DNA of 64,000 nt from positions 1 through 64,000 of the IMG/VR virus record IMGVR_UViG_3300032278_000002; one strand, given 5' to 3'. The translations under genes and the position numbers were made by a program. The stretch comes from a virus. Position 1 is the stretch's first letter, and each line of letters opens with the position of its first letter. The notes below the pieces were generated by a model. It was not told the origin of the DNA. It ran no database searches and was given only the letters and a program-made list of their open reading frames with translations. This document shows positions 22,378 through 52,012 of this stretch, piece by piece.

Positions 22378-23637
22378 CTATGAGAAAAAGTCAAGGTCTG
22401 AATCCAACAACTTGTTGAGGTTATCGATCTTAGCCTCAACCTTCTTCTTCACATTCTCCTCGATGGTGCCGGCAGCTATCACTATGCGCTGCACCGCAGG
22501 GCTCTTCGAACCCACTCTGTTGATCCTCCCCAAAGCCTGAACCAAATCCACGGCCGAATAAGAAGGAGAGACCAGCGCCACACGCGGCCGGCCGCGCGTG
22601 TCGTGTAGAGATATCCCCACGCCCCCGCACTGAATTTGGCATATGATCACTTTTTCATGATTGGTCTGGAAAAGCTCTATGTTCAGGGTTCGTTCGTCCG
22701 CGGACTGATCCCCGGTAACCAAACAAGGGGTGCCCAAGTTATTAGCCAGCTGGCGAATGCTTTCAGTGAAATTCAGAAAGACGGCCACCGAGTTCCCGGT
22801 ATTGAGGTAATCTCGAGCTAATTCAGTTATGGCAGGCACCTTCATCAACTCCACCGTCTGCCGAGCGCGCAATTGGTCGACTATAGGTAATGCCATGTCT
22901 TCCTTTCGGATCAAGGATAGTTCATCGAGGGCAGCTTGAATTTGCTTGGTTTTGCCGGTTTCCACCGAAAGGGCCTTGATTTGATTCTTCGGAAACCCCG
23001 GTATGTCAGTAGTGAGCTCGCGGTGCCCATGGTCGGGGAACAGTTTTTCATGAAGACGCTTTAACGCTTTGACGCCTCCTTTGAACTCAAAGCCGAAAGT
23101 CCCGCGGCGGACTCCGTGCTGATGCATCCAGTGAAACCAGTCGGAGCTGCCGTCATGGAAGCCTAAGACCATGCCGACCGCGTACATATCCATGGGGCTA
23201 GTAGCTATCGTCGCCGACATCATGAGGACCCTACAGTCAGTCCGAGTCAAAGCCGTCAACATCTTGGAATTCTGGGTTTTCCAGTTCTTACACCGGTGAA
23301 CTTCGTCCCATATGAACAAGCACTTGGGGGGTAGTTTCCACTTGTACTTTCGATTTTTGACAAGCCATCCCCCAAAGTCAAAGGCGGGACTCTTCACTTT
23401 TTCCGGATTTTTTATGAAAAAAGTTTTAACCCCGCATGCTTGAGCGGTTCTCTCCCAATCCGGAATGATGGTCTTGGGACACACGACCGCGATAGGCAAA
23501 TTAAGCTTCTTGGCCACCAAACAGGCCACGACGGTCTTACCGTACCCGGTGCCGGAAGCCTCGAGCGCGACCTTGTTCTTGGACAGGATCCTGTACAACT
23601 CGTCGAACCCCCGCTGCTGAAAAGGATATAATTTCAT
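22378..23637 (-). CDS. SNF2-type superfamily 2 helicase
   Basis: 419 residues with both RecA-like domains: Walker A SGTGYGKT (about residues 28-35), a DEVH box in FIWDEVHRCKNWK (about 110), motif III MMSATI, and C-terminal motifs V and VI (IICQIQCGGVGISLHD, LVQALGRINRVGS). Short compared with cellular SNF2 proteins, like compact phage versions thought to act in replication or recombination. Preceded by two TGTGTAGGAA copies, the second reaching the ATG. It follows the primase-helicase pair in the operon. Confidence 0.88.
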   Translation of the reverse strand: MKLYPFQQRGFDELYRILSKNKVALEASGTGYGKTVVACLVAKKLNLPIAVVCPKTIIPDWERTAQACGVKTFFIKNPEKVKSPAFDFGGWLVKNRKYKWKLPPKCLFIWDEVHRCKNWKTQNSKMLTALTRTDCRVLMMSATIATSPMDMYAVGMVLGFHDGSSDWFHWMHQHGVRRGTFGFEFKGGVKALKRLHEKLFPDHGHRELTTDIPGFPKNQIKALSVETGKTKQIQAALDELSLIRKEDMALPIVDQLRARQTVELMKVPAITELARDYLNTGNSVAVFLNFTESIRQLANNLGTPCLVTGDQSADERTLNIELFQTNHEKVIICQIQCGGVGISLHDTRGRPRVALVSPSYSAVDLVQALGRINRVGSKSPAVQRIVIAAGTIEENVKKKVEAKIDNLNKLLDSDLDFFS

Positions 23638-23741: not shown

Positions 23742-25160
23742 TCAACTAACATCCGGGTTGTATATCTTGTATCCACGGCCGCCGCTGGTCCTCGGGAGTC
23801 GAGTAACATGCTCTGGAGCAGACTTGGTCAGGAGCCCCATCAACTTGCCCATTTTACGACTGTCCTTTATTCCCAAGACGTCAAACTCCGTGGCTGCCTG
23901 CAACTGCAGCTTAGCCATGGCCTCAGAGGCGGATCCCGTCCAATCCGGTTCCTCTTGCCAATTGGTGCTGGCGGCCTTACCGGCTATCCTAGTTTTAGGG
24001 GACCCCCGGAAGAGGTATTTCCTCATAACCACCCAAAGCGCGGTGTGGTCCTCGTTGTCTTCTATCTCAAACTCGGCATCGGAGTTCATGTAGCTGGCTT
24101 GTCCAAAGCGCACACAGGGATTCTTTATCTTAAACTTGTCGAGGAAATAGGCGAAAGCAGGCAACTCGTTGATTAAATTGCTGTCCAGTTGTTCCTGTTC
24201 TTCGTCCGTGTCGTTCTTCAAACGACCCTTGAACTGTATGGGAGTGGACTTCATGACTATGAGTTTGTCGCGGGTCTCCTCCAAGGAAGGAAGACATCGC
24301 ATGGAATTGTCCGTGTTATTGACCAAAAACACTATTCGGTTGAATAACCTAGCCGACGTGAAGGACACCGCCTTCTCGTACTTGTCATGGTATTGGAACC
24401 CTTTCCCGGCGATAGCGTTCTTTATGTTCTCGCTCATCGTCAGCCTCTTGTCCAAGTCCATCGAGCCTCCGCGGTCATCCACAAGCCACATCTCGTTTCC
24501 TATGAGATCCCCGTTTCTATCAGACTGTCCCGACAGGAACGGAACCGGATTAAAGCAGGTCCTCCCGATCAACGGCCCCAATATGGCCGAAGTAAAGAAA
24601 GTTTTCCCATCGTTAGGCTCTCCCTTGAGGATAAATGCCTGCCCGGGGCGAAACCGCTGGTTGTCCAACGATTTCCTCAGGGAGGCCCTGCTACACTTCA
24701 GCCAACCGTAGAAATTATCCATTTGGCCGGAGTGTCCTCCGATAAGCTGCTCTATCAGTTCCCTTATGGTATCCCACTTGCCCGGTGCGGGCTTTATGTA
24801 AATGGGCTCGCTGTCCACAAGCACCCTCTGGTCTCCAAACTCATACACCCCCTTGCGCTTCCCGGAAATAGGAAGCTTGCCGTTGACCACGTTATTGAGC
24901 CGTATGGAACGGAGCATGCGACGGCCTAAGCCGGGCTTGCTTTCCGAACCGGGGGCCAAAGAGTAATCGAACAACAGATTCTGCAAAACATCGGCCTTCG
25001 CCATCTTCATGAGCTGCGTAACTCCCCTCGGGTCCTTGAAGAGATGGTACAAAGCTCCGTCCTGATGCACGAAGTACTCCGCTAGCACCGCGGCTTGCTT
25101 GGTCGCAACCTTGGAATTGGCCGCCGCGTTCTTGACCTTCTTGATGTTAGCTTTCTTCAA
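23742..25160 (-). CDS. SF3-like replicative helicase
   Basis: 472 residues. A P-loop GEPNDGKT lies near residue 195 inside a helicase core (FILKGEPNDGKTFFTSAIL), followed by WLVDDRGGSMDL as the Walker B/B' region and FNRIVFLVNNTDN as motif C (sensor Asn), the arrangement of D5/SF3-type phage helicases. The C-terminal 100 residues look winged-helix-like. The gene overlaps the primase gene by 14 bases, so the two make a primase-helicase pair that would replace a DnaB-type helicase. Confidence 0.78.
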   Translation of the reverse strand: MKKANIKKVKNAAANSKVATKQAAVLAEYFVHQDGALYHLFKDPRGVTQLMKMAKADVLQNLLFDYSLAPGSESKPGLGRRMLRSIRLNNVVNGKLPISGKRKGVYEFGDQRVLVDSEPIYIKPAPGKWDTIRELIEQLIGGHSGQMDNFYGWLKCSRASLRKSLDNQRFRPGQAFILKGEPNDGKTFFTSAILGPLIGRTCFNPVPFLSGQSDRNGDLIGNEMWLVDDRGGSMDLDKRLTMSENIKNAIAGKGFQYHDKYEKAVSFTSARLFNRIVFLVNNTDNSMRCLPSLEETRDKLIVMKSTPIQFKGRLKNDTDEEQEQLDSNLINELPAFAYFLDKFKIKNPCVRFGQASYMNSDAEFEIEDNEDHTALWVVMRKYLFRGSPKTRIAGKAASTNWQEEPDWTGSASEAMAKLQLQAATEFDVLGIKDSRKMGKLMGLLTKSAPEHVTRLPRTSGGRGYKIYNPDVS

Positions 25161-26097
25161 CGCCGTCCCCCGGTTCTTCCTTTACGTACAAGAGTTGCTG
25201 CTCCTTCTTTCCCCGAAAGGAATAAGGCAGCCGAGTCAAACGAACCGGGGTGAGGGAGTTGGGGTCCGCGCCACTCATGACCAACGGTTCGTAAAGGCTG
25301 TTTACCATGCTATCAAATTCCCGAGAAGTTTCCGTTCCCAAATCAACGATGGCGTGCACGCTTTTGCCGCCGGACGTCACAATTGATTTTATCGCCAACG
25401 GGAGAGTTATCAAGTATTTCAACCAATATTCGGTGATATTGGGGTAATCATGGTCACACTCCAGCACTAAATGGCGGAAATCAGTGACACAATCCTTTGA
25501 CCGCCACGACCCCTTGACGGCCTCTCCCTTCACCGGGTTGTTGAGGAAAAACACACCTTCTTCGCCACCGGGCACCCTGTGTGAATGTGGGGGCTTCTTG
25601 AAATCACGGGGGTAAAACAAATCCTTTTTGTAGCGGGCGCTCCTTAAGATGCAGGCGGTTTCGTCCGTCCGGAAAAGTTTGGATAGGAACTCCGCCACCG
25701 TGTGGCAGGAGTCCGTGTGTTTATCCAAGATTTTATAGGGATCCCCGACTCCATCGACCTGGTCTTCCAGACACTCGAAGTCAAAATCCACCGCAGGCCG
25801 CTTGGGCCGGGCGTTCCTCTCCAGCGGATCTAGGGCGAGGAACTCTTTCGCACGCTCTATAGAGCGGGAGGTTTCTTCGGCAAGCTTGGCTTCGTCACTT
25901 CTCGCTGACAGCGTTCGCACAATGCCTCGGATGTCGGACTCATCCACACCGCTTGCCATAAGCGAGATAACAGTCCGGTAATTCCAAGCATTACAGCCTT
26001 GGCCGTCCGGCGGACTACCCTCCACCAAACCTTCCTGCAACATAATTTCTGCGAGTGACTCTCCGGGCTTATTTTCATAGGTTGTTTCATGATTCAT
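25147..26097 (-). CDS. Archaeo-eukaryotic-type primase (PrimPol-like)
   Basis: 316 residues. The C-terminal half has the three primase/RepB-type motifs: an acidic pair in HLVLECDHD (about residue 210), SGGKSVHAIVDL (Ser-x-His motif, about 245) and PVRLTRLPYSFR (about 290). The N-terminal 100 residues are charged and helical and may bind the helicase or DNA. ATGA overlap with the polymerase stop and overlap with the helicase start show co-translation. Expected role: primer synthesis for PolA. Confidence 0.75.
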   Translation of the reverse strand: MNHETTYENKPGESLAEIMLQEGLVEGSPPDGQGCNAWNYRTVISLMASGVDESDIRGIVRTLSARSDEAKLAEETSRSIERAKEFLALDPLERNARPKRPAVDFDFECLEDQVDGVGDPYKILDKHTDSCHTVAEFLSKLFRTDETACILRSARYKKDLFYPRDFKKPPHSHRVPGGEEGVFFLNNPVKGEAVKGSWRSKDCVTDFRHLVLECDHDYPNITEYWLKYLITLPLAIKSIVTSGGKSVHAIVDLGTETSREFDSMVNSLYEPLVMSGADPNSLTPVRLTRLPYSFRGKKEQQLLYVKEEPGDGVEES

Positions 26098-27872
26098 TTT
26101 TGGTATCTTGTTGTCAGGATCCCATCACAGTCCAGAGGCAGCCCGTGGATCCAGTCCGGTGTCTCCCTCATTATCTCCTTTATTTTATTCAAATCCTCCT
26201 CGTCGTCCACTTCGACGACCACCTCGTCGTGAACGTGCATGACCACCGAGAAATGTTTCTCCACTTCCAGTATAGCGTCTCGGAGGCAATCCCTCGCAGT
26301 GGCTTGCACTAAATTCTCAGTGAGCTTGCCTCCGTAAAACTTGTACCGAACGGCATTCATGGTGGTGCAGGCTCGATAGTCATAACCGAAGCGCTTCCCG
26401 GCTTCCCTAGTTATGGCAAAGTAGTTGAGGACTCTTCCCGAAGGTAATTCTATCGAGTAGTCTCCGTTCAGGGACCGGCGGAACGCCTTGTCCAAGGACT
26501 TCCACAACCTTATTATAAGCGGGTTGTTCTGCCGGTAATCGGAAACAACTTCCGAGGCTTCCTCAATGGATATATCCAACCCGGCGAGTATCTTGGCCAC
26601 ATCCACGAACTTCGCAGCTCCGCACCCAAACCCCAAACCAAGGCTACGGGCCTTCGCCAAAGCATAGAGCTCGGGATCTTCTTTCTTCAAGTTATTGCCC
26701 TCCCACCCCATGGTGACTTCCGCGTGGGCTTGGTAGGGAGAGGTGGTCTTGCATTTGTCCAAGAACTCGTGGTCTCCGGACAACGAGTGGATGACCCGGC
26801 ATTCGATCTGGCTGTAATCCACGATGGCGAACTTCTTGCCCGGCTGAGGGACTATCAGACTTCGTATGTTAACGGAAGTCCGCCCCGCCTTGACTGGGTC
26901 TCTGTGCAAATTCTGCATGTTAAGCCCGCCGGCTCCACTCCAACGCCCGGTGTGGGCACCGAAATAAAACAACCCGTATTCCATGCGCCGGATATCTCCG
27001 GTTCCCTCGCACCTGATCAAAATAGTTTCCACGGTTTTCAACAACTTGTTGTATTTCCTCCAAAGCTGGACCGCCTTGACGAACGGCGCGCTCTCGCCGT
27101 AAGTGTCGAACCAGAGCTCAAACTTAGGGTCCTTGGCATTCGTCGTCTTGGGTTTGGGTATTCCGGCCGTCTCGCAGGCAATGGCTATTTGCTTCGGGGA
27201 GGTCACGGGGACGGGTTTCCCCTTGGGAGTCTTGGTTCCAGCCCAAGGGATTGTCTTTTGCACCCGCTTCAAGGCCGCTTTCAGCGCTTTTTGGTAGGTC
27301 TTCGCACGTGCGTAATCTATATAAACTCCGCGTTCGCACATGGACAAGGTGTGGAGGGATATGGACTTTTCCTTGTCCGGCCACTGGGAGTGAAACTTGT
27401 TCCAGAATTTAAAACAAATCTGGGAGTCCAAGAGAGCATACTCTTTCCAGATTTCTTTCTGGTCGTCGTCCAGTGTGCTGTAGTGCACTCCTTTCATGTT
27501 ATCTCGGACATCCTTGCTCATCTTGTTGCCAAAAGCATTCTCGGAAGCAGTCGCAAGAGCTCGGCCCGCACACAAGAAGACCGAAAGATGGGAGGCGTCG
27601 TGCCAAACCTTGGGCATTACGCCGATCTTCTTCAACTCGACAAACCGGCGATGGACAGCGCGATCAAACCCGGTGTTCCAAGAAACCCACTCGAGGTCGG
27701 CTACCTGCTCCCAGTCAAAATCTTCCGGGGGGCCGGAATACTCTATCCCATCAGCTACTACTGATACGAGGGGGGATTCGAACCTCGGGTCGAGGACGTA
27801 TTTCCTCGGGCCAAGGGTCCTGACGGAATAATCCTCCGAATAGAAAGTTTCATAGTCAACGGCGCAATACAC
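26094..27872 (-). CDS. polA: Family A DNA polymerase with 3'-5' exonuclease
   Basis: 592 residues from a GTG start; no 5'-3' exonuclease domain. Exonuclease motifs are intact: DYET (Asp6, Glu8), NTGFD (about 66-70) and YALLD (145-149). Polymerase motif A is VDYSQIECRV (Asp352), motif B LAKARSLGLGFG (Lys407), motif C HVHDE (Asp549, Glu550). Aligning motif B to E. coli Pol I puts Leu411 at position 762, Phe415 at 766 and Tyr403 at 754, where Arg is usual. Leu762 has been linked in the literature to temperate phages. It is the replicative polymerase beside primase and helicase. Confidence 0.95.
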   Translation of the reverse strand: MYCAVDYETFYSEDYSVRTLGPRKYVLDPRFESPLVSVVADGIEYSGPPEDFDWEQVADLEWVSWNTGFDRAVHRRFVELKKIGVMPKVWHDASHLSVFLCAGRALATASENAFGNKMSKDVRDNMKGVHYSTLDDDQKEIWKEYALLDSQICFKFWNKFHSQWPDKEKSISLHTLSMCERGVYIDYARAKTYQKALKAALKRVQKTIPWAGTKTPKGKPVPVTSPKQIAIACETAGIPKPKTTNAKDPKFELWFDTYGESAPFVKAVQLWRKYNKLLKTVETILIRCEGTGDIRRMEYGLFYFGAHTGRWSGAGGLNMQNLHRDPVKAGRTSVNIRSLIVPQPGKKFAIVDYSQIECRVIHSLSGDHEFLDKCKTTSPYQAHAEVTMGWEGNNLKKEDPELYALAKARSLGLGFGCGAAKFVDVAKILAGLDISIEEASEVVSDYRQNNPLIIRLWKSLDKAFRRSLNGDYSIELPSGRVLNYFAITREAGKRFGYDYRACTTMNAVRYKFYGGKLTENLVQATARDCLRDAILEVEKHFSVVMHVHDEVVVEVDDEEDLNKIKEIMRETPDWIHGLPLDCDGILTTRYQK

Positions 27873-30043: not shown

Positions 30044-30217
30044 ATGACTAAGGAAAACGTAAAAAAAGTTGTGGGGGTCCGGTTGACGGAAACCACTAAA
30101 AACAAGCTCGATACGCTCTCCGCCAAGTACCAAGTGTCCGTATCCACGTTAGTGAGGATAGCGGTTAACCGACTTGTCCAAGACGCGGAGAAAGATAAGG
30201 AGATTTCCTTGTCATGA
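30044..30217 (+). CDS. Ribbon-helix-helix transcriptional regulator
   Basis: 57 residues from ATG 30044; an in-frame extension upstream is rejected because it crosses the control region. VVGVRLTETTKNKLDTLSAKY then VSVSTLVRIAVNRLVQD is the Arc/CopG/MetJ-type pattern: an N-terminal strand (VGVRL) that reads DNA as a dimer ribbon, and two helices. First gene of the rightward block, facing the exonuclease operon, so it may repress its own promoter and the divergent one. It also lies 1.3 kb from the ATGACATG array; small RHH proteins often bind such short repeats. Confidence 0.82.
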   Translation: MTKENVKKVVGVRLTETTKNKLDTLSAKYQVSVSTLVRIAVNRLVQDAEKDKEISLS

Positions 30218-30654
30218 TAGCCGTGGACCCGGGTGTGAAGGGCGGCATGGCCTACGACGTCGGGAGTGGCCCGATATTAACCTCGTGGGGAGGCGTCGCC
30301 AAAATGTACGAAGAGTTGGAGACAGTGCTTACGGTTATGAAGACCCCGCCTAACACGGCACCCGTCGCATATGTGGAGCACGTCACGGCCTCTCCCATCA
30401 TGGGAAGGAAGGCGGCGTTTACTTTCGGGCACAACTTCGGGCAGTGGGAAACGCTTTTCTTCGCGCTCAACGTGCGCGTGGAGCTAATCAAGCCACAAGT
30501 GTGGCAAAGGGGAATACCGGGGCTTGGTGGAAGTACTCGGAAAAGAGCCTTGAAAGCCCATGCGACGAGACTTTACCCGGATCTTAAAGTTACGGCGGCG
30601 ACACAAGACGCCCTCCTGATACTAGACTACGCAAAAAGGACATATGATGGCTAA
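30214..30654 (+). CDS. RuvC-like Holliday junction resolvase
   Basis: 146 residues overlapping the RHH gene by ATGA. RNase-H-fold acidic positions: IAVDPGVKGG (Asp5), VAYVEHV (Glu55), and TQDALLILDYA (Asp132, Asp138). Length and motifs match phage RuvC-type resolvases that cut branched DNA before packaging or in recombination. Between a regulator and a DUF1599 gene in the early operon. Confidence 0.85.
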   Translation: MIAVDPGVKGGMAYDVGSGPILTSWGGVAKMYEELETVLTVMKTPPNTAPVAYVEHVTASPIMGRKAAFTFGHNFGQWETLFFALNVRVELIKPQVWQRGIPGLGGSTRKRALKAHATRLYPDLKVTAATQDALLILDYAKRTYDG

Positions 30655-31446: not shown

Positions 31447-31552
31447 GTAGTCTATGGGGTGGGTGCGTCAAGTCTTCTTGATCGTACTGCCGGGCTACTT
31501 CCAAACAAAGTTCCACCTCCGTCTCATCAATGACATGAGGCTTTCTCTTCAT
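31340..31552 (-). CDS. Small minus-strand protein within the repeat region
   Basis: 70 residues from ATG 31552. The first half (KPHVIDETEVELCLEVARQY) looks folded; the second half is Gln/Glu/His-rich and overlaps the basic 53-residue gene in another frame. Its ATG lies inside one ATGACATG repeat, and an 11-bp inverted repeat (31528-31538/31549-31559) spans its first codons. If expressed, it would be controlled directly by whatever binds the array. No family recognised. Confidence 0.45.
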   Translation of the reverse strand: MKRKPHVIDETEVELCLEVARQYDQEDLTHPPHRLHDEDRAIIHRQPGTETKGVLHQEGESLRRQDEQEG

Positions 31553-31768
31553 GTCATTGCGTAAAACGTTCGAAATGAGCGAGATCCAGCCCAAAATGAC
31601 ATGATGACATGTAATCCGGCCAAAAACCCAATAAATGTTATTACCTTATATATACTCACACTTTTTTACTGTTTTACATGTCATCATGTCATTGGCGTAT
31701 ATAGTGTGCTGGATACCAAAGAGTTATGAAATGACATGTAAGAATACCCTCATGTCATTCATGTCATT
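31528..31768. repeat. Array of ATGACATG octamers in both orientations
   Basis: Nine copies of ATGACATG or its complement CATGTCAT: forward at 31530, 31596, 31604 and 31731; reverse at 31550, 31677, 31685, 31751 and 31760. Two paired copies form a perfect 20-bp inverted repeat (31595-31614 with 31674-31693) flanking an AT-rich core of about 59 bp, and another pair forms an 11-bp inverted repeat. Paired iterons around an AT-rich core are typical of replication origins, partition sites and multi-site operators. Mostly non-coding between 31553 and 31763. Confidence 0.85.
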
Positions 31769-32066
31769 CCTCGTTCCATCCAATTTTTAGCCCTGAGTCG
31801 TCGGACCAGCACGTAGCTTGGGTTTTAGCGGATTTGAAGGGCATATAGCACCCACACCCGAATCCGACGGCATTGGGTCCGCAAGTCTTGGAGTCCCGGT
31901 TATATATAGGACATTGCCGGCATTTCCTCATTCGGCTCCACCACAGTTTGCGGCCCGCGTTCCTCCCTATTGCGAGTAAAACCATTTTCCAGAGCGTGAG
32001 GGGGTTTCTAAGCCCTCCCACTGCCTTAGCCCATTCCTTCAGTCTGCGGCGGTTTATGATACCCAT
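31764..32066 (-). CDS. Cys-rich small phage protein
   Basis: 100 residues from ATG 32066 (a longer TTG-initiated form from 32105 is possible). N-terminal half is basic and helical; the C-terminal half has CRQCPIYNRDSKTCGP then GFGCGCYMPFKSA and a final Cys, a likely zinc or iron-binding knot seen in small phage proteins of unknown role. Its stop codon falls inside an ATGACATG repeat. Minus-strand, opposite the surrounding early genes, so it probably belongs to the same small island as the array. Confidence 0.72.
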   Translation of the reverse strand: MGIINRRRLKEWAKAVGGLRNPLTLWKMVLLAIGRNAGRKLWWSRMRKCRQCPIYNRDSKTCGPNAVGFGCGCYMPFKSAKTQATCWSDDSGLKIGWNEE

Positions 32067-32280
32067 ACGCTCGATTAAACCCCAAAAGCACCGGGACACG
32101 AGCAAAAAGTTTGAGAATGCTCCGACTAGAGACGCCCTATGTTATACTCGTACGCAGGCAAAAGAGCAAACCCCCCTTGCCCCCCTTCCCTAGTGGTATG
32201 GTTTGGGTAGTACCCTACCACAATCTCCTTGCTTCGGCTTATAGTCTAACCGCAACAGAAACCAAGTGACCAACAAAACA
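32067..32280. promoter_or_regulatory. Intergenic region with nested inverted repeat and -10-like site
   Basis: Separates the minus-strand island from the rightward 181-residue gene. A nested inverted repeat, GTGGTA/TACCAC (32193-32198, 32216-32221) around GGGTA/TACCC (32205-32215), looks like an operator or leader hairpin. TATACT at 32143-32148 is a good -10 hexamer but has no clear -35. The rest of the gap shows no gene. The rightward gene begins without a Shine-Dalgarno sequence. Confidence 0.35.
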
Positions 32281-40000: not shown

Positions 40001-40203
40001 TGACTCGGAAATTCAACCGCCAGTTTCCCATGAACAAGTTGGAGAATATATACATGAAACAACTGATTCGGTACCGAGTGAAAAATTTATGTCCGCTTAC
40101 TGGGCGGCCAATGAACAGAACAACAAATGTAGATACCTTCCGTGAACGCGAGGGGTATGTACGAAACGTAAAGGAAGAAGAAATATGGAAATACCAACGC
40201 TAA
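37012..40203 (+). CDS. Large unknown protein linked to AAA+/VWA operon
   Basis: 1,063 residues from GTG 37012 (AAGGAGG is 5-6 bases upstream). Rich in Trp, Tyr, Arg and His, predicted mixed alpha/beta with no transmembrane segment. A C-x-C pair occurs in DQVLTCKCPP (about residue 660), and the C-terminal 80 residues are basic (KHKLRWW-type patches). No motif of a nuclease, polymerase or protease was recognised. It ends 19 bases inside the MoxR-type ATPase gene, so it is likely the partner or substrate of that system. Its size and lack of recognisable family make it the main unknown of the window. Confidence 0.8.
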   Translation: MNKFLKNLERDNLYPLGRDATLSDWKSGRFVRMFAPSSWYSSMRHRMDPDADHPTGPHRVGGQGITHSSKASLHLPSWFHESYDLKWNANVCGRPLAVSEGQNFNTSWGTNGKKDVFKDDFHGVLPEGYLLIPHDFLIGSEPRWESPLSLFEYPFYAPFATLTSLFHDSGASIVDKWELEDESKGYEVRYQRELVSKINAKWWVGKAKTCRHKIEYILKWLRDPTLDLRVRWGITPSDQLKTSKERFTCTDVAELWNSYDNPEEPYALRYNLRNDYGHQRKDPDQTSGKHLDGTKSIIYGRRFELNSDRVRLRIGMMPRLKQYIVCKDTYSPALAAPCKEYKTDAVASRRETGSWDATRFRAHPNYNDAQDHLFTTPINLLGVFGEQRNSLIKDNLCYKAHTDSHYRSPKRSWFYVNTPVPDAKSEHGRVRTTLELGWTHIRSFNLCFKRVGQGLYEWKDLGWELPEESYDPPGAETNTKADNQLMAVRWLTARMNKELKGRWYLRTTGPAYTNLPIKGTNRNSTHQQIAWLGEWINMLETLMETDRRGAEYLALMMNQLIDPKRTTGWDSPRYQLNAEMKFIKGSHPGRLRKLINDPNILTPPTGLPDSERESLHKARNVFYKYLPAFTVKMFKKAKKDYLKQRHHEDCDQVLTCKCPPNGGLNISYKYLKQLYRKRCNLAVKWHISDNDCQSGKVFNALTGSLVVLLPRNRVSHKQSRDGPTILNTMNVDYSGGFIVLSNGTLDSMHVSEATGHHQRGQYPEGDSPPFAGPVRFRCTVDAVRAFRDPYVSALSSKEFKGYPATYAYDRPYCVVRKSERQSTPDWLLVRSHASVTEVRPKEEIAHDLRVHQITYDRLKLELANGVDAAGMPLSKRSRLDYVNCYLPRLENQLKFPREFNQHRVSKGFDEQLQLTNSIGQLYHDRSIGQFPVMSTAYAVLFMPVDMFDASPMEIYNWMKDYCDKLITRSLRSRRYCYANCVWQSLHKLRWWAKSFGLTRKFNRQFPMNKLENIYMKQLIRYRVKNLCPLTGRPMNRTTNVDTFREREGYVRNVKEEEIWKYQR

Positions 40204-41276
40204 CGCCAACCGAGCTAACTCAATGCTTGAAATTGGCTTTCATCAATAATGAGAACACTATTGTCACGGGGGCACCGGGACAGGGGAAAACGGCTCTCGT
40301 CAAGGACGCCATTCGTGCGGTCGGCTTTGACTCGATATTCGTTCACCTCTGCTGCAGTGACCCGGTGGATGTAAAGGGGATGCCACACTTCGACAAGGAT
40401 CCGGAAACCGGGGACACGGTGCCCAACTTCCTCCCCTTCGGAGACATGCGACGCATGATGTACGCCAAGAGGCCAACGGTGGTGTTCTTGGACGACTTCG
40501 GCACTGCACCGATATCAGTTCAAACCGGATACATGCAAATCGTTCAAGAGAGAAGATTGAATGATTTCCCAATCAGCGAGCACATCCGGTTCTGCATTGC
40601 CACCAACCGTTCGGACGACAAGGCCGGTGCCAACCAAGGCGTGATCGAAACAATCAAGGGTCGCGCTACCATCTTGCCAACACGCCCGGATGTCGCCGAG
40701 TGGTGCAATTATGTCAGCAAGCACGGCGTGGCTGATTACAGCGATGAACCATATGACCCATGCCCGCATGAGTTGTTGGCCTTCGCCCGCTTCGTCAATT
40801 CCAAGGGAACTCCGCTGTTCGAGTTCAAGGCGGAGAAGAACGTGGAACACCAGTGCTGTACTCCAAGGAACTTGTCTAGGATGGGCAGGTGGATCAATCG
40901 CTACCAAGAAGAAAGCATCGATATGTCTGATATTCCCTTGGCTGTCATCCACGGCACCGTGGGAGATGTGGTCGGTACCAAACTGGCCGGGTTCGTCAAG
41001 ACTATCAGCAAGTTACCTTCGTTCGCCGAGATTATGAAAGATCCTTACGGCACCCGCGTCCCCAACGAACCAAACGAGTGTTACGCGTTGGTTGGGTTCT
41101 TGGCCAACAAGGCTGATCATAAGAACTTCGATGAACTCGTAGACTACGTGCTTCGTTTCTCGCCCGAGTTCCGGATGGTGTTCCAACAGGACGTGGTCAC
41201 TAACAACGAGGCGTTGATGCAAGTATCCAAGTACGATGACCTGCTTCAATCCACCAAGGAAGTGGTGCTACCATGA
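40185..41276 (+). CDS. MoxR-type AAA+ ATPase
   Basis: 363 residues. Walker A GAPGQGKT (29-36), Walker B VVFLDDFG (99-106), sensor-1 region CIATNRSDD (Asn141) and a C-terminal lid. This is the compact MoxR/CbbQ/CobS-like clade that works with VWA proteins to remodel or load partner proteins. The VWA partner is the next gene, overlapping by ATGA. The target here is probably the 1,063-residue protein or a host factor. Confidence 0.9.
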   Translation: MEIPTLTPTELTQCLKLAFINNENTIVTGAPGQGKTALVKDAIRAVGFDSIFVHLCCSDPVDVKGMPHFDKDPETGDTVPNFLPFGDMRRMMYAKRPTVVFLDDFGTAPISVQTGYMQIVQERRLNDFPISEHIRFCIATNRSDDKAGANQGVIETIKGRATILPTRPDVAEWCNYVSKHGVADYSDEPYDPCPHELLAFARFVNSKGTPLFEFKAEKNVEHQCCTPRNLSRMGRWINRYQEESIDMSDIPLAVIHGTVGDVVGTKLAGFVKTISKLPSFAEIMKDPYGTRVPNEPNECYALVGFLANKADHKNFDELVDYVLRFSPEFRMVFQQDVVTNNEALMQVSKYDDLLQSTKEVVLP

Positions 41277-42574
41277 CACGGATAAACGTAGCACCAACAT
41301 CAGCTCCCCTCAGCAAAGAGGACCAGAAAGACCTTATCGACAAGGGCACCCTCCGAATCAGACGCATTCAATGTCGGAAGCTGGTCATGGAAAAGCCCTT
41401 TTGGGCGGCGATCATGTATCAATTGTTGATGTCGGTTCGCATGGGAGAGGGCACTGCTTGGACGGACGGCCGCCGACTGGTGTTCGATGCTCAATTCATC
41501 GACTTGTTGACCGAAGAACAACTACTCGGACTCATCCTACACGAACTAGCTCACGTGGTGTTCATGCACCACCTTCGCCGAGGACCCCGGGACGGTCAAC
41601 TCTGGAACATGGCGGCTGATTATTGCATAAATTGGCTGTTGGTTCATGTCGACAGTCAAGTCCTGCCCGATGGGGCTCTTCTCGAGGATGAGTACAAGGA
41701 TGACACGGCTGAACAAGCTTACGCCAAGTTGTACAAGAAATATCCGCCGCCGCCGCAGGGGCATGGGAACCCTCCCGGACCTTGCAATGGTGGGCTGGGA
41801 GGTCAGCAACCACCGGGTGTGCCCGGCGTACCTGGCCAAGATTGGGGCGAAGTACGCGATGCGACTGGGGAAGGGGACGTAAAATTAACCGATTCCCAAA
41901 AGAAAGCGGCCGAGCAGCTGATGGCAGTGTCAATTCGACAAGCGATGAACACCGCCAGACGCCAAGGCAAGATGCCGGGTGGCTTGCGGGAGAAATTCGA
42001 GGGGTTACTCAAACCTACCGTTGATTGGAAGAAAATTCTCAACGACTTCTTGTCAGAAAGATTCCCCTTGGATTACAGTTGGACCACGGTCAATACTCGA
42101 CGCAGCCTCCCCGACTCCTGCCTCCCGGGCAGGGACGGAATCCAATGGGCACGGGTTGCCGTTGCCATCGACACGTCCGGTTCCGTGACAGTGGATGAGA
42201 TCCGGCAAATGTGCTCGGAGATAATGCACTGTCTGGACTGCTATGATTCAAATGGTCAAGGGATGGAAATTGACGTCCTTTACTGTGACACTGAGTTACA
42301 CGGCCATGAAACACTGACGTCCGGCGACATGCCGTACCAAGAAATCAAGGGAGGCGGAGGCGGTACCATGTTCTCTCCAGTCATGGAGGAGTTCAAGGAC
42401 CGTCAATACCTCACCGAAGACCCAGCCGCCTTGATCTACATGACGGACGGCTGCTGTGATGATTTCGGGGATGATCCCGAAATCCCTGTCCTCTGGATGA
42501 TGGTCGGGGATTACTATAATAAAACATTCAAACCACCGTTCGGCACTGTTAGCCGGATGGAACTTGCTAACTAG
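41273..42574 (+). CDS. Metallopeptidase-like VWA protein (DUF2201 type)
   Basis: 433 residues. The N-terminal half has a zinc motif HELAH (residues 90-94) with a third ligand candidate in WNMAADYCIN (Asp116), as in DUF2201 putative metallopeptidases. A Gly/Pro-rich linker (about 158-190) leads to a VWA domain with MIDAS DTSGS (Asp300, Ser302, Ser304) and a later TDG. The family pairs with MoxR AAA+ ATPases. Peptidase activity is not proven: the Zn motif may be structural. ATGA overlap with the ATPase gene. Confidence 0.88.
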   Translation: MTRINVAPTSAPLSKEDQKDLIDKGTLRIRRIQCRKLVMEKPFWAAIMYQLLMSVRMGEGTAWTDGRRLVFDAQFIDLLTEEQLLGLILHELAHVVFMHHLRRGPRDGQLWNMAADYCINWLLVHVDSQVLPDGALLEDEYKDDTAEQAYAKLYKKYPPPPQGHGNPPGPCNGGLGGQQPPGVPGVPGQDWGEVRDATGEGDVKLTDSQKKAAEQLMAVSIRQAMNTARRQGKMPGGLREKFEGLLKPTVDWKKILNDFLSERFPLDYSWTTVNTRRSLPDSCLPGRDGIQWARVAVAIDTSGSVTVDEIRQMCSEIMHCLDCYDSNGQGMEIDVLYCDTELHGHETLTSGDMPYQEIKGGGGGTMFSPVMEEFKDRQYLTEDPAALIYMTDGCCDDFGDDPEIPVLWMMVGDYYNKTFKPPFGTVSRMELAN

Positions 42575-46374: not shown

Positions 46375-48877
46375 TGAAAATCCAGTACTAACCTACTCCA
46401 TTGACGGGTTGATTCAAATCAACTTGATGGATGACCAACGAGTCGAGCTCGGCAAGGAGTGGTGTGAAAAACTCGAGTGCTTCGATGGCAAGATCGCCGA
46501 AGAAGTTATTCGTGAGCAATACTTGAGGGAACATGCTCAAGAAATAATAGATGCCTATAACGATGACTTGTTCAAGATAGCAGTATCAGTCGAGATCAAG
46601 TTGAACGTAGCGTTAAAGGCATACGGGAAAGCCTGCGCTCCATTGATGCCCCCAACTGACTATGAGCTCATCGCCTACGTGGATGGGTTGCAGAAGGGGT
46701 TGGTTTGTGACGACGCCGTATCCGGCATGTCGTTCACCAAGGGATGGACATATCCTGTCCGCACGGAATTCTTCGAGTATTCGGAGAAGTTCGTAGTCAA
46801 TCGTCCTTATTACGATGAAAAGACCAAGAGCTATCTGAAAAAGAAGCACCGGATCAGCCGTAAAGGGAAGGATCGAGCCATCGTTGTTCGGGACGACTTC
46901 GGCGAGGAGAACTACTTCTTGGAAAAGCCGACCCTGTTTCCAACGAGCCGGCTGCCCTCGAATGGGCAATACAGACTGCACGACATCGATTGTATGTGGC
47001 TGGCTTTCCAACGGCCTAAGATATCCACGGTCAAGGAGACCTTGAGAGAAACGTATGATGATGTGATCAATCGGCTCGAGGTATATGAAATGATGTGCGG
47101 ATTCGAATACTATGAAGGTCAGCGAGATTTCATTGCTCGCATGGCGTGCCGGGACTTCGGCATAGTGGGCGCCGCCTGCGGATGCGGGAAATCCTTGATG
47201 GCTATCACATTGATGAAGGTGAAGGAGGATGCCTTGAAAATCTTACTCATAGCACCGGCATCAACTGTGACCAGCGGAAATGGGTACACTCCCGCTCAAT
47301 GGGCGCAAGAGTTTGCCGACTTCGCTCCCGACATCAACACCTTCGAGTTGTTCTCGTTCGATCACTACGAGTTGTTGAAGAAACGGTACAAGGGCAAGCT
47401 GCCCCCCGGAGTGTACATCACTTACCCCGAAGCCATGTTTACTTCGGGCGCTCGGGAGTACTTACCGCAAACATGGAAAGAGGAAGGCCGAAAGGATCCT
47501 TGGCTGGTCGAACGAAAGTTCCGGAAAATCATGAAGATGCCGCCTGTGGACGAGGACAATCTCATACATGAGGAGCAGTATCACAAGGGGCTTGGACAAA
47601 CTTGCGGAGAAGGGGAGATACTCTGCGTTGCGAAACCTAGTCTGAGTTCGGTGGTGTCCCAAGAACAAGGCGACTTCGACATGATCGTATTGGACGAGGC
47701 CCACACCGTGGCGGCGAACATAAAGTCACAGAGAGGTCGCGCGTTCCTTCGAATGCAGTCAAAGTACCGGTACTGCCTATCGGCTACTCCCATTCCCAAT
47801 AATATTGGCGACTTGTTCGGGATAATGGGATGGGTCACCGTTCCCAAGTGGTACAGGGGGAACAAGCGCTCAGTTAGCTTCCCTTACTCAATTGAGCAAA
47901 AGGGTAACTTCGAATCCGCTTACTTGACCTACGAAGATGACTTGACCGCCACCATGCGAGCATCGGTCAAATATGTCAAAGGTCGGCAAAGAAGAGTGCG
48001 AAGACGGTCCAACATAGTGAGTCAACCCACTAGCCTGCTCAAACTACTGAAGCCTACCATTGGATATGTTGACAAAAGCGACTGTCGGAACGACATGCCC
48101 AAATGTATCATCAATGAAGTTAGGGTTCCGTTGGGACAAATACAAGCGCGGGCGTACCACATTGCCAAGAGTATGGCGAGAGGGGCCTTTGCCCGATACA
48201 GCCAGCTTAGGCAAGTGTGCGCGGACCCTTCCGCTTATGGATCGCCTCCGGAAAATCCAAAAACCATGACCGTGCTGCAATTAGCGCTGCAGTGTCTCGA
48301 GAAGCACGAGCAGGTGGTAATCGTGTCGGCACGCCACGGAATGACCAACGCGTTGGAGGAAAAATTCTGGGAGTCTGGAGTAACGACTTCTCGATTGGAC
48401 GGGTCTATGTCGTCGAGAATGCAAAGCCAAGAATCACAGGATTTCAAGGATCAACGAACACAGATTATGTTGATGGGAATCAAATGTGCGATGGGTCATT
48501 CCTACCCGCAGTGCCCCAACTTGATATGTACGAGCTTGGAGTGGAGTTACGGCACCAAGGAACAAGCCTTCGGGCGTGTGTTCAGAGTCAACTCTCCCAA
48601 GACAGTCAATATCTGGTGTGTGCTGCATGCGGAATCCATCGAGGATACCATGTTCTCCCGAGTCAGCGACAAACAGGAGTCAGCATTGCTCTGTCTCCAT
48701 GGAAAACGAATGACTCGCACACCCAAGTTCTCCACACCGGAGGACATCTTGGCGGAACACCTCATTGATTACGCCGCCGGGGAAACGATAGATGAACAAG
48801 TTTGCATAAGGGAATGGCCGTCCTTACGCACCAAGCTTGCCGATGCGGCCCAAATATTCGACCCAACACTAGCATGA
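46364..48877 (+). CDS. Large SNF2-type superfamily 2 helicase
   Basis: 837 residues. N-terminal 250 residues are unique. Then GQRDFIARMACRDFGIVGAA leads into Walker A GCGCGKS (about 272-278), the DEAH box in IVLDEAHTV (about 440), motif III LSATP, and C-terminal motifs V and VI (ICTSLEWSYGTKEQAFGRVF). Second SNF2-like helicase of this phage; the other is 419 residues at 22.4 kb. Overlaps the ligase-like gene by 11 bases and the integrase by ATGA. Confidence 0.85.
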   Translation: MITNENPVLTYSIDGLIQINLMDDQRVELGKEWCEKLECFDGKIAEEVIREQYLREHAQEIIDAYNDDLFKIAVSVEIKLNVALKAYGKACAPLMPPTDYELIAYVDGLQKGLVCDDAVSGMSFTKGWTYPVRTEFFEYSEKFVVNRPYYDEKTKSYLKKKHRISRKGKDRAIVVRDDFGEENYFLEKPTLFPTSRLPSNGQYRLHDIDCMWLAFQRPKISTVKETLRETYDDVINRLEVYEMMCGFEYYEGQRDFIARMACRDFGIVGAACGCGKSLMAITLMKVKEDALKILLIAPASTVTSGNGYTPAQWAQEFADFAPDINTFELFSFDHYELLKKRYKGKLPPGVYITYPEAMFTSGAREYLPQTWKEEGRKDPWLVERKFRKIMKMPPVDEDNLIHEEQYHKGLGQTCGEGEILCVAKPSLSSVVSQEQGDFDMIVLDEAHTVAANIKSQRGRAFLRMQSKYRYCLSATPIPNNIGDLFGIMGWVTVPKWYRGNKRSVSFPYSIEQKGNFESAYLTYEDDLTATMRASVKYVKGRQRRVRRRSNIVSQPTSLLKLLKPTIGYVDKSDCRNDMPKCIINEVRVPLGQIQARAYHIAKSMARGAFARYSQLRQVCADPSAYGSPPENPKTMTVLQLALQCLEKHEQVVIVSARHGMTNALEEKFWESGVTTSRLDGSMSSRMQSQESQDFKDQRTQIMLMGIKCAMGHSYPQCPNLICTSLEWSYGTKEQAFGRVFRVNSPKTVNIWCVLHAESIEDTMFSRVSDKQESALLCLHGKRMTRTPKFSTPEDILAEHLIDYAAGETIDEQVCIREWPSLRTKLADAAQIFDPTLA

Positions 48878-49893
48878 GTATTAACAAAGCAGTTAACGCG
48901 TGGTCCGAATGGTTGGGGGAGACTCTCTCCCCCGCCCTTCGGGACACATATGAAAAACGACTGAAAGCTTTCGCCAAGAGGCGGAAGCTCAAGGACGTCA
49001 CTTGGAAAACCATCAACCAGTTTCTGAGAGACAAAGGCAAACGCGGGTTGAAGTACAGTACGATCAAGCAATATATCAGCGCTTTGAAAAGCTTCTGCAA
49101 ATTTGCTTACGCCGAGGGCTTGCTGGACAAAGACCCGTCTTCACTGATAAAGATACGGCCGCAAACCTTAGCCATACGACAGCTCGAGGATGAGCCGCGT
49201 GTTCCGTTCACCTACGACGAGTATGAGTCAATCTTGGCGTACGTCACGATGTGGGAACATGGGGCAAAGCAGATGAAGACACGGCAATGGGCCACCTTCT
49301 GGAAGATTGCGGTTCCCTTGTCGTACTGGACGGGAGTTCGTCTGCATGACTGCGCTTGCCTCGAGGTAGGTAATTTCTATTACGAGTTGTTTGACTACGA
49401 GCTGCCGAAATTTGCAGGCATGCTTTTTTGGACGAAGAAGAGAAACAAGAGGGTCTTTCTACCACTGGATAATCCGCTGATAGGTCACCGTCATTTGGTG
49501 GACATACCGAACCAATTGAAAAGAAGGTCATGGATCGCCGCCGCCTCCGGTGCAGTATCCCACCAATACGGAAATGCCGAGAAACTGGACGATCTCAACG
49601 GGGAGTTCTATTTCCCCCTGCAATATAGACTTATCGACTCTCCTCAAAGAAACCAATTCTCCCAGCGATTCAAAAGAATCACCGACTCGTTGGGCATCCA
49701 TGGAAAAAGTTTCCATTGCCTAAGGCATTCGTTCGCCACCCGCTTGGAAGAAGCTGGCGTAACTTACGAGGATATCGCTAGATTTATTGGACATGGTCAA
49801 ACGATAACCACCCAAGGGTATTGCCACGGGCAAGAGTTGCCCGATTTAGGTATCCCGAACCAAGCTAGAAAATTCTTCAACCCGAAATACTGA
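48874..49893 (+). CDS. int: Tyrosine recombinase (integrase)
   Basis: 339 residues from ATG 48874. N-terminal core-binding domain (about 1-100) then catalytic domain with Arg156 (TGVR), Lys188 (WTKKR), His281 and Arg284 (HCLRHSFATR), His307 (GHG) and nucleophile Tyr316 (QGYCH). This is a complete catalytic set. Suggests a temperate life cycle or resolution of phage DNA. No flanking attachment site is recognised. Embedded in the early operon rather than isolated beside a tRNA. Confidence 0.9.
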   Translation: MSINKAVNAWSEWLGETLSPALRDTYEKRLKAFAKRRKLKDVTWKTINQFLRDKGKRGLKYSTIKQYISALKSFCKFAYAEGLLDKDPSSLIKIRPQTLAIRQLEDEPRVPFTYDEYESILAYVTMWEHGAKQMKTRQWATFWKIAVPLSYWTGVRLHDCACLEVGNFYYELFDYELPKFAGMLFWTKKRNKRVFLPLDNPLIGHRHLVDIPNQLKRRSWIAAASGAVSHQYGNAEKLDDLNGEFYFPLQYRLIDSPQRNQFSQRFKRITDSLGIHGKSFHCLRHSFATRLEEAGVTYEDIARFIGHGQTITTQGYCHGQELPDLGIPNQARKFFNPKY

Positions 49894-50582: not shown

Positions 50583-51332
50583 TCAACACAACAGGAATGC
50601 GACGGCCCACAAATCCTCTACCTCGTTTAGGTTGTGCCGTAAGTAATCGGGCTCCGCATCCCGTGGCTGGTGTGATGCCGCACGGCCTCTGCTCATCTTA
50701 TGGACATATTCTTCTCTAGTTTTGCAAAAATAATGGTTTATCTGCGCCACGTCGTCTGGCCCGTCGGGATTGAAGGGACCACGACCGACATGTAAATTCG
50801 TATCAACCCATTTGAGATTAGAATAATGAGGGTTTCTATACACGGGATTCTTACTTAGCTTGACCATTGTTTTTACGTGCTTATTAACCCCGATACCCCT
50901 TTTCGTGAACCTATCTATAACACTATAATTCCCTTTTGAGACTTCTTTATGCCCGTTGTTTCCGAAGATATGCCAATTCACCGCAATGCTATCGTACTCC
51001 CCATAGCATTGAATGAAATTTTTAATGGAATCGTGTTTCTTTAGGACGAGAAACTCATCGACGTCTATGAAACATGCCCAATCATAATTCCCTTTATTCG
51101 ATTCGATGAAAAGGTTATAAGCCTTCATCTGCGGTCGCTCCAATATGGGCTTATGGGCAGCGGTCTTCCCGTCATGTTCAACCAAATGGACGTTTTCCCC
51201 GATTACCCCCTCAGCTCTCCATTCGTTTTGATAAATCCATATATCGTCAAACCCCAGAGCGGTATGATAATCAACCCATTCTTGGATATAATGGTCTTCG
51301 TTTTTGGCTATACATACCAAAGCTAATTTCAT
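50583..51332 (-). CDS. GT92-like glycosyltransferase
   Basis: 249 residues. N-terminal LALVCIAKNEDHYIQEWVDY then LGFDDIWIY is the GT92/Glyco_tranf_2_4 signature; FIDVDEFL (about residue 90) supplies the DxD-type metal site. Expected to transfer a sugar onto a glycan or protein. Final long gene of the glycan cassette, overlapping the sulfotransferase by ATGA. Confidence 0.75.
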   Translation of the reverse strand: MKLALVCIAKNEDHYIQEWVDYHTALGFDDIWIYQNEWRAEGVIGENVHLVEHDGKTAAHKPILERPQMKAYNLFIESNKGNYDWACFIDVDEFLVLKKHDSIKNFIQCYGEYDSIAVNWHIFGNNGHKEVSKGNYSVIDRFTKRGIGVNKHVKTMVKLSKNPVYRNPHYSNLKWVDTNLHVGRGPFNPDGPDDVAQINHYFCKTREEYVHKMSRGRAASHQPRDAEPDYLRHNLNEVEDLWAVAFLLC

Positions 51333-52012
51333 AGTTCCTCCATGTCCGGATAAAGGTCTAATATATGTGGGTCATTAACTAGTTGTTGTTTTTGGATTTC
51401 ACTTAAATCAATTTTTGAAATATCATTATTTGATACAAAGGGTTGGTTAATTTGCCAAGTTCTCAATTCCTCGTGGTCTTTATCCTTGGGTTTTTTAACT
51501 GGTAGTTTAACACCGGAGTGAGAAACATTCGTATATTTGGTATTATCAAATATAGTATCATCATAGTTTAGACCAATATCGTCTAGTATTATTTTTAATG
51601 CTTGATGCTCATTTTTAAAGAGGTCTTCATATTTAATAGTATATATATCTTTTTCCGGATTATCTCTATAATTGATAAACCGTTTTACGATACTAATATA
51701 TTTTGCAATTGTGGGCCGGACCCGCTGGTGCCGAGGGATGGCATTCGCAAATCGTTTATTTATTGATGAAAAAACAAATAGTGGATTACGAATAATAAAT
51801 ATTTTTATATAATCTTCGTAGTCTTCACCAAAAAATTTAAGGTCCGCTCGTGGATATTTACACATTAAATACGGCTTATCCGTACTCTTGCTATACAAGA
51901 TTGCCTTGGTTCTTTCATCGTCAATTTCTTCAACGTCTTCTATATGCCCTATTATTGATTTCAAAATAGTGGTTCCACAATGGGGAAATCCGGTGATTAT
52001 GATTTTTTGCAT
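51329..52012 (-). CDS. Sulfotransferase-like protein
   Basis: 227 residues. GFPHCGTTILKSIIGHI (residues about 8-24) is the PAPS 5'-phosphosulfate loop; IFIIRNPLFVFSS (about 70-82) is the 3'-phosphate-binding motif with the Arg-Asn-Pro core. It would sulfate a glycan or other acceptor. The gene is strikingly AT-rich compared with flanking genes, suggesting recent acquisition. Sulfotransferases are uncommon in phages. Confidence 0.72.
   Translation of the reverse strand: MQKIIITGFPHCGTTILKSIIGHIEDVEEIDDERTKAILYSKSTDKPYLMCKYPRADLKFFGEDYEDYIKIFIIRNPLFVFSSINKRFANAIPRHQRVRPTIAKYISIVKRFINYRDNPEKDIYTIKYEDLFKNEHQALKIILDDIGLNYDDTIFDNTKYTNVSHSGVKLPVKKPKDKDHEELRTWQINQPFVSNNDISKIDLSEIQKQQLVNDPHILDLYPDMEEL

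Follow-up and report, generated by a model that had tools for sequence, protein, structure and literature searches.

Origins of replication are not known for most uncultured phages, and the question raised here is whether a dense array of short repeats in the virus record IMGVR_UViG_3300032278_000002 represents such an origin, and which protein would use it. The window that we analysed comprises the first 64,000 bases of this linear record of 72,681 bases, which belongs to an uncultured 73-kb phage. A preliminary description of the locus had left three functions side by side (iteron-like origin, partition site and multi-site operator); our analysis strongly favours the first of them, while the operator and the partition site turned out to be much less likely. 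We suggest that the array is very probably an origin of the type used by self-loading superfamily 3 (SF3) helicases, such as alpha of satellite phage P4 and Rep of the phage-inducible chromosomal islands (PICI) and Staphylococcus aureus pathogenicity islands (SaPI), and that it loads two helicase hexamers. This view draws on the dense and symmetric array itself, its layout in the relative L004 and in more distant relatives, the adjacency of similar arrays to helicase genes elsewhere, the likeness to the P4 ori and the pRN1 origin, and the fold of the helicase.

Symmetry of the iteron array

The octamer ATGACATG is found on the plus strand at 31530, 31596, 31604 and 31731 and on the minus strand at 31550, 31677, 31685, 31751 and 31760. 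All nine copies, described previously as lying within 241 bp in both orientations, are present, as are the 20-bp perfect inverted repeat, the 11-bp one (31528-31538/31549-31559) and the AT-rich core between the arms (Table 1). The record-wide count that the preliminary description had proposed returned 11 copies, nine of which fall inside these 241 bp, i.e. the octamer is not spread evenly. The view of the array as the densest repeat holds for the whole record, in which it is the densest octamer cluster; in 20 simulated Markov genomes the clusters did not exceed three copies. The array is also mostly non-coding, as supposed: the gene at 31764-32105(-) reaches into the last octamer with its stop codon, and a long open reading frame (ORF) from TTG at 31594(-) runs through part of the array, although a start at ATG 31446 would put the array outside that gene.

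A feature missed by the preliminary description is that eight of the nine sites can be matched as mirror images around a single axis with base precision, giving four pairs (31531+/31752-, 31551-/31732+, 31597+/31686- and 31605+/31678-), the start coordinates of the hexamer summing to 63283 in every pair. When nine sites were placed at random 200,000 times, four exact mirror pairs never arose. The iterons are spaced at 20-46-8-73-8-46-20-9 bp across the array. The inner arms reach 32 nt (84%) if mismatches are allowed, and the outer pair of 40-nt arms is 78% complementary. As DNA, the array folds much better than its shuffles do (z -8), which follows from the inverted repeats and is no proof of a hairpin; an Rfam search over 29.8-32.5 kb returned no match.

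Conservation of the layout in related phages

Among the compared records, cited here by our L numbers, L004 is the only near relative reaching the array region (DNA polymerase 62-64% identical); a terminase search for closer relatives found L101 (76%), which is too short to reach the array. The L004 array occupies the equivalent place, flanked by the DUF1599 gene on one side and by the homologue of the 31764-32105 gene on the other, and consists of the motif RTGACAT spaced at 9-21-46-9-74-9-66 bp. Its stretch of 21-46-9-74-9 corresponds to 20-46-8-73-8 in the window, most sites thus lying within about 1 bp. In a blastn comparison of the window with L004 the array itself is left without a match, and the leftward ORFs adjoining it differ; the sites and their geometry are thus retained while the remaining DNA drifts.

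More distant relatives possess a similar layout built of other heptamers: CCCTAAC in L007 (46-9-9-94-9-44), AACCATA in L019 (9-47-8-105-8-45-20-11) and TCCACCA in L023 (48-9-108-9-67). Such a change of motif would be expected with every motif matched to an initiator of its own. The array geometry is rare, with no matches in 0.9 Mb of block-shuffled sequence. For the left outer module the spacings are 20 and 46 bp in the window, 21 and 46 in L004, 47 in L019, 19 and 48 in L096, and 22 and 43 in the P4 ori. One can propose a widespread origin architecture of tailed phages, in which the spacing (8-9, 43-50, about 20, and about 75 or about 105 bp) is kept while the iteron sequence changes, as if a geometry imposed by a double helicase hexamer were under selection; we consider the chances of this generalisation to be evenly balanced.

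Similar arrays beside helicase genes

A scan of the central array geometry over 2.9 million viral contigs yielded 38 stretches. Ten array-bearing records, two of which share one array, have the array next to a gene for a DUF5906, D5 or VapE helicase, and in nine records the distance to the 3' end of this gene is 120 bp or less. Counted as non-redundant arrays at most 120 bp 3' of such genes in unrelated phages, there are 8 against 0.08 expected (P ~4e-14, a value that is indicative rather than formal, the loci having been found by a pattern derived from the window array and the helicase families picked after the first matches). GTGACAT is the motif of the arrays with this layout located directly 3' of D5/SF3 primase-helicase genes in unrelated phages. 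In L069 and L092, other primase- or helicase-like genes hold the same position.

The informal character of this test is one of several points that weigh against the array being an origin. In the window it lies about 6.4 kb from the helicase gene (31.5 kb versus 23.7-25.2 kb), unlike in PICIs and the unrelated phages, and it is non-adjacent to this gene in L004 and L019 also. A scan of a genome collection gave no match with the strict pattern, and the 22 stretches found with a looser one are mostly not beside SF3 helicases and are partly expected by chance. In sequence, the helicase is only about 10-15% identical to its relatives of solved structure. A GTGACAT array is no proof in itself and can be something other than an origin: that of L075 adjoins a CI-like repressor gene, and most matches in cellular genomes have no such helicase next to them. 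With respect to distance, we regard adjacency to the initiator gene as usual rather than defining for origins of the P4/PICI type, because in P4, too, the ori and the alpha gene lie far apart.

The L075 cluster (GTGACAT/ATGTCAC) recalls a different function for the array, namely that of a repressor operator cluster, or else an attachment or packaging site unrelated to replication, or a functionless inverted duplication, of which the 32-nt and 40-nt extended arms could be remnants. We hold this to be very improbable: the L004 layout is kept to about 1 bp while the intervening DNA has no match, the integrase gene is 17 kb away, and the association with helicase genes is far above expectation.

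L071 and L075 are two separate GTGACAT/ATGTCAC clusters in one phage (IMGVR_UViG_2929249989_000002), one of them beside the CI-like repressor, which has a peptidase S24 domain. These clusters are likely operators rather than an origin.

The RHH protein and partition as alternatives

Ribbon-helix-helix (RHH) proteins bind short repeats in mixed orientation, and the preliminary description had put forward the RHH protein encoded at 30044 as a candidate binder of the array. The array would then be its multi-site operator, controlling the leftward gene from about 31446 or divergent early/late transcription. This fits with the distance of 1.3 kb between the RHH gene and the array, with L019, where an RHH gene adjoins the array, and with the position of the array directly upstream of a leftward ORF both in the window and in L004, although these ORFs differ while the array stays. 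The RHH and RuvC-like genes remain paired in L016, L020, L021, L023, L024 and L036, but in all of these except L020 the array was found about 0.7 kb 3' of the helicase gene and 8-9 kb from the pair. No RHH_1 match was obtained in ten array-bearing records that have no relation to the window phage, most being fragments. The start of the RHH gene itself has no TGACAT close by; on the left, the nearest is at 23003. Judged from these gene orders, the array does not appear to be linked to the RHH gene across the relatives, and the operator function is unlikely to a high degree; the more likely binder is the SF3 helicase.

Short repeats in mixed orientation also occur in centromeres of the ParG/Omega type, and the tyrosine recombinase of the phage makes a lysogenic or plasmid phase possible, so a centromere-like partition site of a phage-plasmid was considered. 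Equivalent arrays elsewhere adjoin helicase genes, and among the examined proteins we noticed no ParA-like ATPase, no search aimed at ParA having been made. We judge a partition function to be very improbable.

The candidate initiator and a proposed mechanism

The 472-aa helicase was modelled with AF2 using 17 relatives (mean pLDDT 77). The best structural matches of the model are the C-terminal region of NrS-1, the SaPI5 primase-helicase (Z 15.9, 280 residues), PrimPol of African swine fever virus (ASFV), vaccinia D5 and PriRep1 with double-stranded DNA (Z 12.8). Modelled alone, the last 105 residues give a winged helix (pLDDT 86). Its best matches are generic winged-helix folds, and their Z of at most 7.0 is not strong by itself; the same C-terminal region is also reached by the alignment of the whole protein to SaPI5 and PriRep1. 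The C-terminal matches of the model support a winged-helix fold, not any specific relative. PDB sequences searched with a profile of the helicase alignment gave no match, so that the link to the solved structures is one of fold only. At the place of the split primase and helicase of the window, the relatives have a single ORF of about 700 aa.

We suppose that the octamers serve as iterons to which the helicase binds through its C-terminal winged-helix domain. Given the mirror arrangement of the two inverted tandem pairs, one helicase ring would assemble on each side of the 59-bp core, head to head with the other, and the two would melt this AT-rich DNA. The phage primase and DNA polymerase may then start two forks, and we infer that initiation at the array is bidirectional. 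The exact two-fold symmetry would offer a clean substrate for studying head-to-head assembly and melting by two self-loading helicase hexamers, a step not yet resolved for the SaPI and SCCmec initiators in the literature compared. Here the layout, not the sequence, points to an origin and its likely initiator, and a geometry-based search for origins may be possible in many phages with D5/SF3 helicases.

Table 1. Coordinates of the array, its parts and the associated genes in the window
Feature	Position	Strand	Basis and remarks
Whole iteron array, proposed replication origin	31528..31768		Nine exact octamers, four exact mirror pairs; layout kept in L004 and, with other motifs, in L007/L019
Left outer module	31528..31559		Facing iterons 20 bp apart (31531 +, 31551 -), 46 bp from inner pair
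Left inner arm, half of 20-bp perfect inverted repeat	31595..31614	+	AATGACATGATGACATGTAA; two iterons 8 bp apart, TGACAT at 31597 and 31605; L004 tandem pair 3429/3438
AT-rich core, proposed melting region	31615..31673		59 bp, 69% AT vs 48% in whole record; matching L004 core 81% AT
Right inner arm	31674..31693	-	Two inverted iterons, 31678 and 31686; L004 counterpart 3512/3521
Right outer module, mirror of left	31730..31768		31732 +, 31752 -, plus one extra iteron 31761 -
SF3/D5-like helicase (DUF5906), predicted C-terminal winged helix; proposed initiator	23742..25160	-	Pfam DUF5906 E=6.9e-7; AF2 model vs structures
Primase-like protein, separate from helicase here	25147..26097	-	phrog_2597 DNA primase E=1.7e-14
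Family A DNA polymerase	26094..27872	-	Pfam DNA_pol_A E=1e-25
57-residue RHH protein, earlier candidate binder	30044..30217	+	phrog_876 transcriptional repressor E=4.2e-9
RuvC-like resolvase, beside RHH gene	30214-30654		phrog_1770 Holliday junction resolvase E=2.2e-15

Genome context

The record reads as a tailed phage, with portal-like and terminase-like proteins, a family A DNA polymerase, a primase-like protein and a DUF5906 helicase. Genes are directed leftward in most of 1-29.9 kb, rightward in 32.3-50.4 kb and leftward in the remainder, the array lying in the short mixed region between the first two blocks. GC skew had been proposed as a check. In our analysis of GC and AT skew the sign of AT skew changes at about 30 kb, but this coincides with the change of gene direction and is uninformative on the origin, because transcription diverges at the same place.

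The gene at 31764-32105(-), whose 3' end touches the array, encodes a small Cys-rich protein kept in L004 (40%) and L058 (39% over 67 aa), with a weak match to phrog_13558 (function not known). Directly upstream of the rightward operon, a 37-bp element (32104-32140 in the window, about 2940-2980 in L004) is 92% identical between the two phages, 17 bp of it, GACTAGAGACGCCCTAT, being identical; an exact search for this 17-bp sequence across the IMG/VR contigs found, apart from the window phage, only the L004 contig. This element is possibly an early promoter or operator.

Further along the rightward block, 40185-42574(+) encodes a MoxR-like AAA ATPase followed by a DUF2201 metallopeptidase/VWA protein, and similar pairs occur near polymerases in several distant relatives. 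The block ends with the tyrosine recombinase (48802-49893(+)), from which a temperate life style is possible. An AT-rich island at 50583-52012(-), of 41% GC, encodes a glycosyltransferase and a sulfotransferase, which perhaps modify surface sugars. Another repeat, of the CCAATGCC type, is present in six copies within 241 bp at about 1763-2000, within a gene that encodes a proline-rich virion-like protein.

Comparison with known origins

One of the closest parallels is offered by satellite phage P4, whose ori (X51522) is annotated with type 1 repeats; these are GGTGAACA octamers of differing orientation. Similarly to the window array, it has 8-bp iterons in both orientations, tandem pairs 9-10 bp apart, an opposite iteron 43 bp away and then about 22 bp, and AT-rich DNA beside the pair. 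Read on one strand, the P4 ori is arranged as +++-++ at 10, 11, 22, 43 and 10 bp, and the first part of the L096 array as +++-++ at 9, 12, 19, 48 and 8 bp. According to PMC4234260, with reference to Yeo et al. 2002, the helicase that recognises the P4 origin carries a winged helix at its C-terminus. P4 differs in its motif, GGTGAACAG, in showing only one half of the symmetric layout at ori, in the fusion of alpha to a bacterial-type primase, and in the need for a second region, crr, which lies directly 3' of the alpha gene and has a similar repeat set; the window phage has one complete symmetric array.

PICI/SaPI origins are served by an initiator of the SF3/D5 type with the primase separate or fused (PMC6092414, PMC7581432), and the window phage likewise encodes an SF3/D5-type helicase. 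Those origins are found directly 3' of rep, in contrast to the distance in the window, and the window element is a 73-kb tailed phage with its own family A polymerase. For Bordetella phage BPP-1, a stem-loop 3' of the replicase gene has been suggested (PMC4234260); it was tried as a parallel and rejected, since its imperfect 23-nt arms (78%) surround 52 nt but hold no clear iterons.

The origin of plasmid pRN1, used by ORF904, requires a 21-nt stem with a 58-nt loop 3' of a gene for an SF3 helicase with a C-terminal winged helix, and is described as a stem-loop without iterons for which specific binding was not detected (PMC4234260). Its dimensions resemble the 20-bp arms and 59-bp core of the window, and this likeness suggests that the pRN1 stem-loop may consist of inverted initiator sites rather than a hairpin.

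Taken by the features typical of P4/PICI-type origins, the window has short iterons in both orientations, two sets of which flank an AT-rich region, an SF3/D5-type helicase encoded by the same element and, by prediction, a C-terminal winged-helix domain in this initiator; it lacks the location immediately 3' of the initiator gene, which is usual in PICIs and true of the P4 crr but not of ori. By this comparison, the array would belong to a known kind of origin, but placed away from its proposed initiator gene and unusually symmetric.
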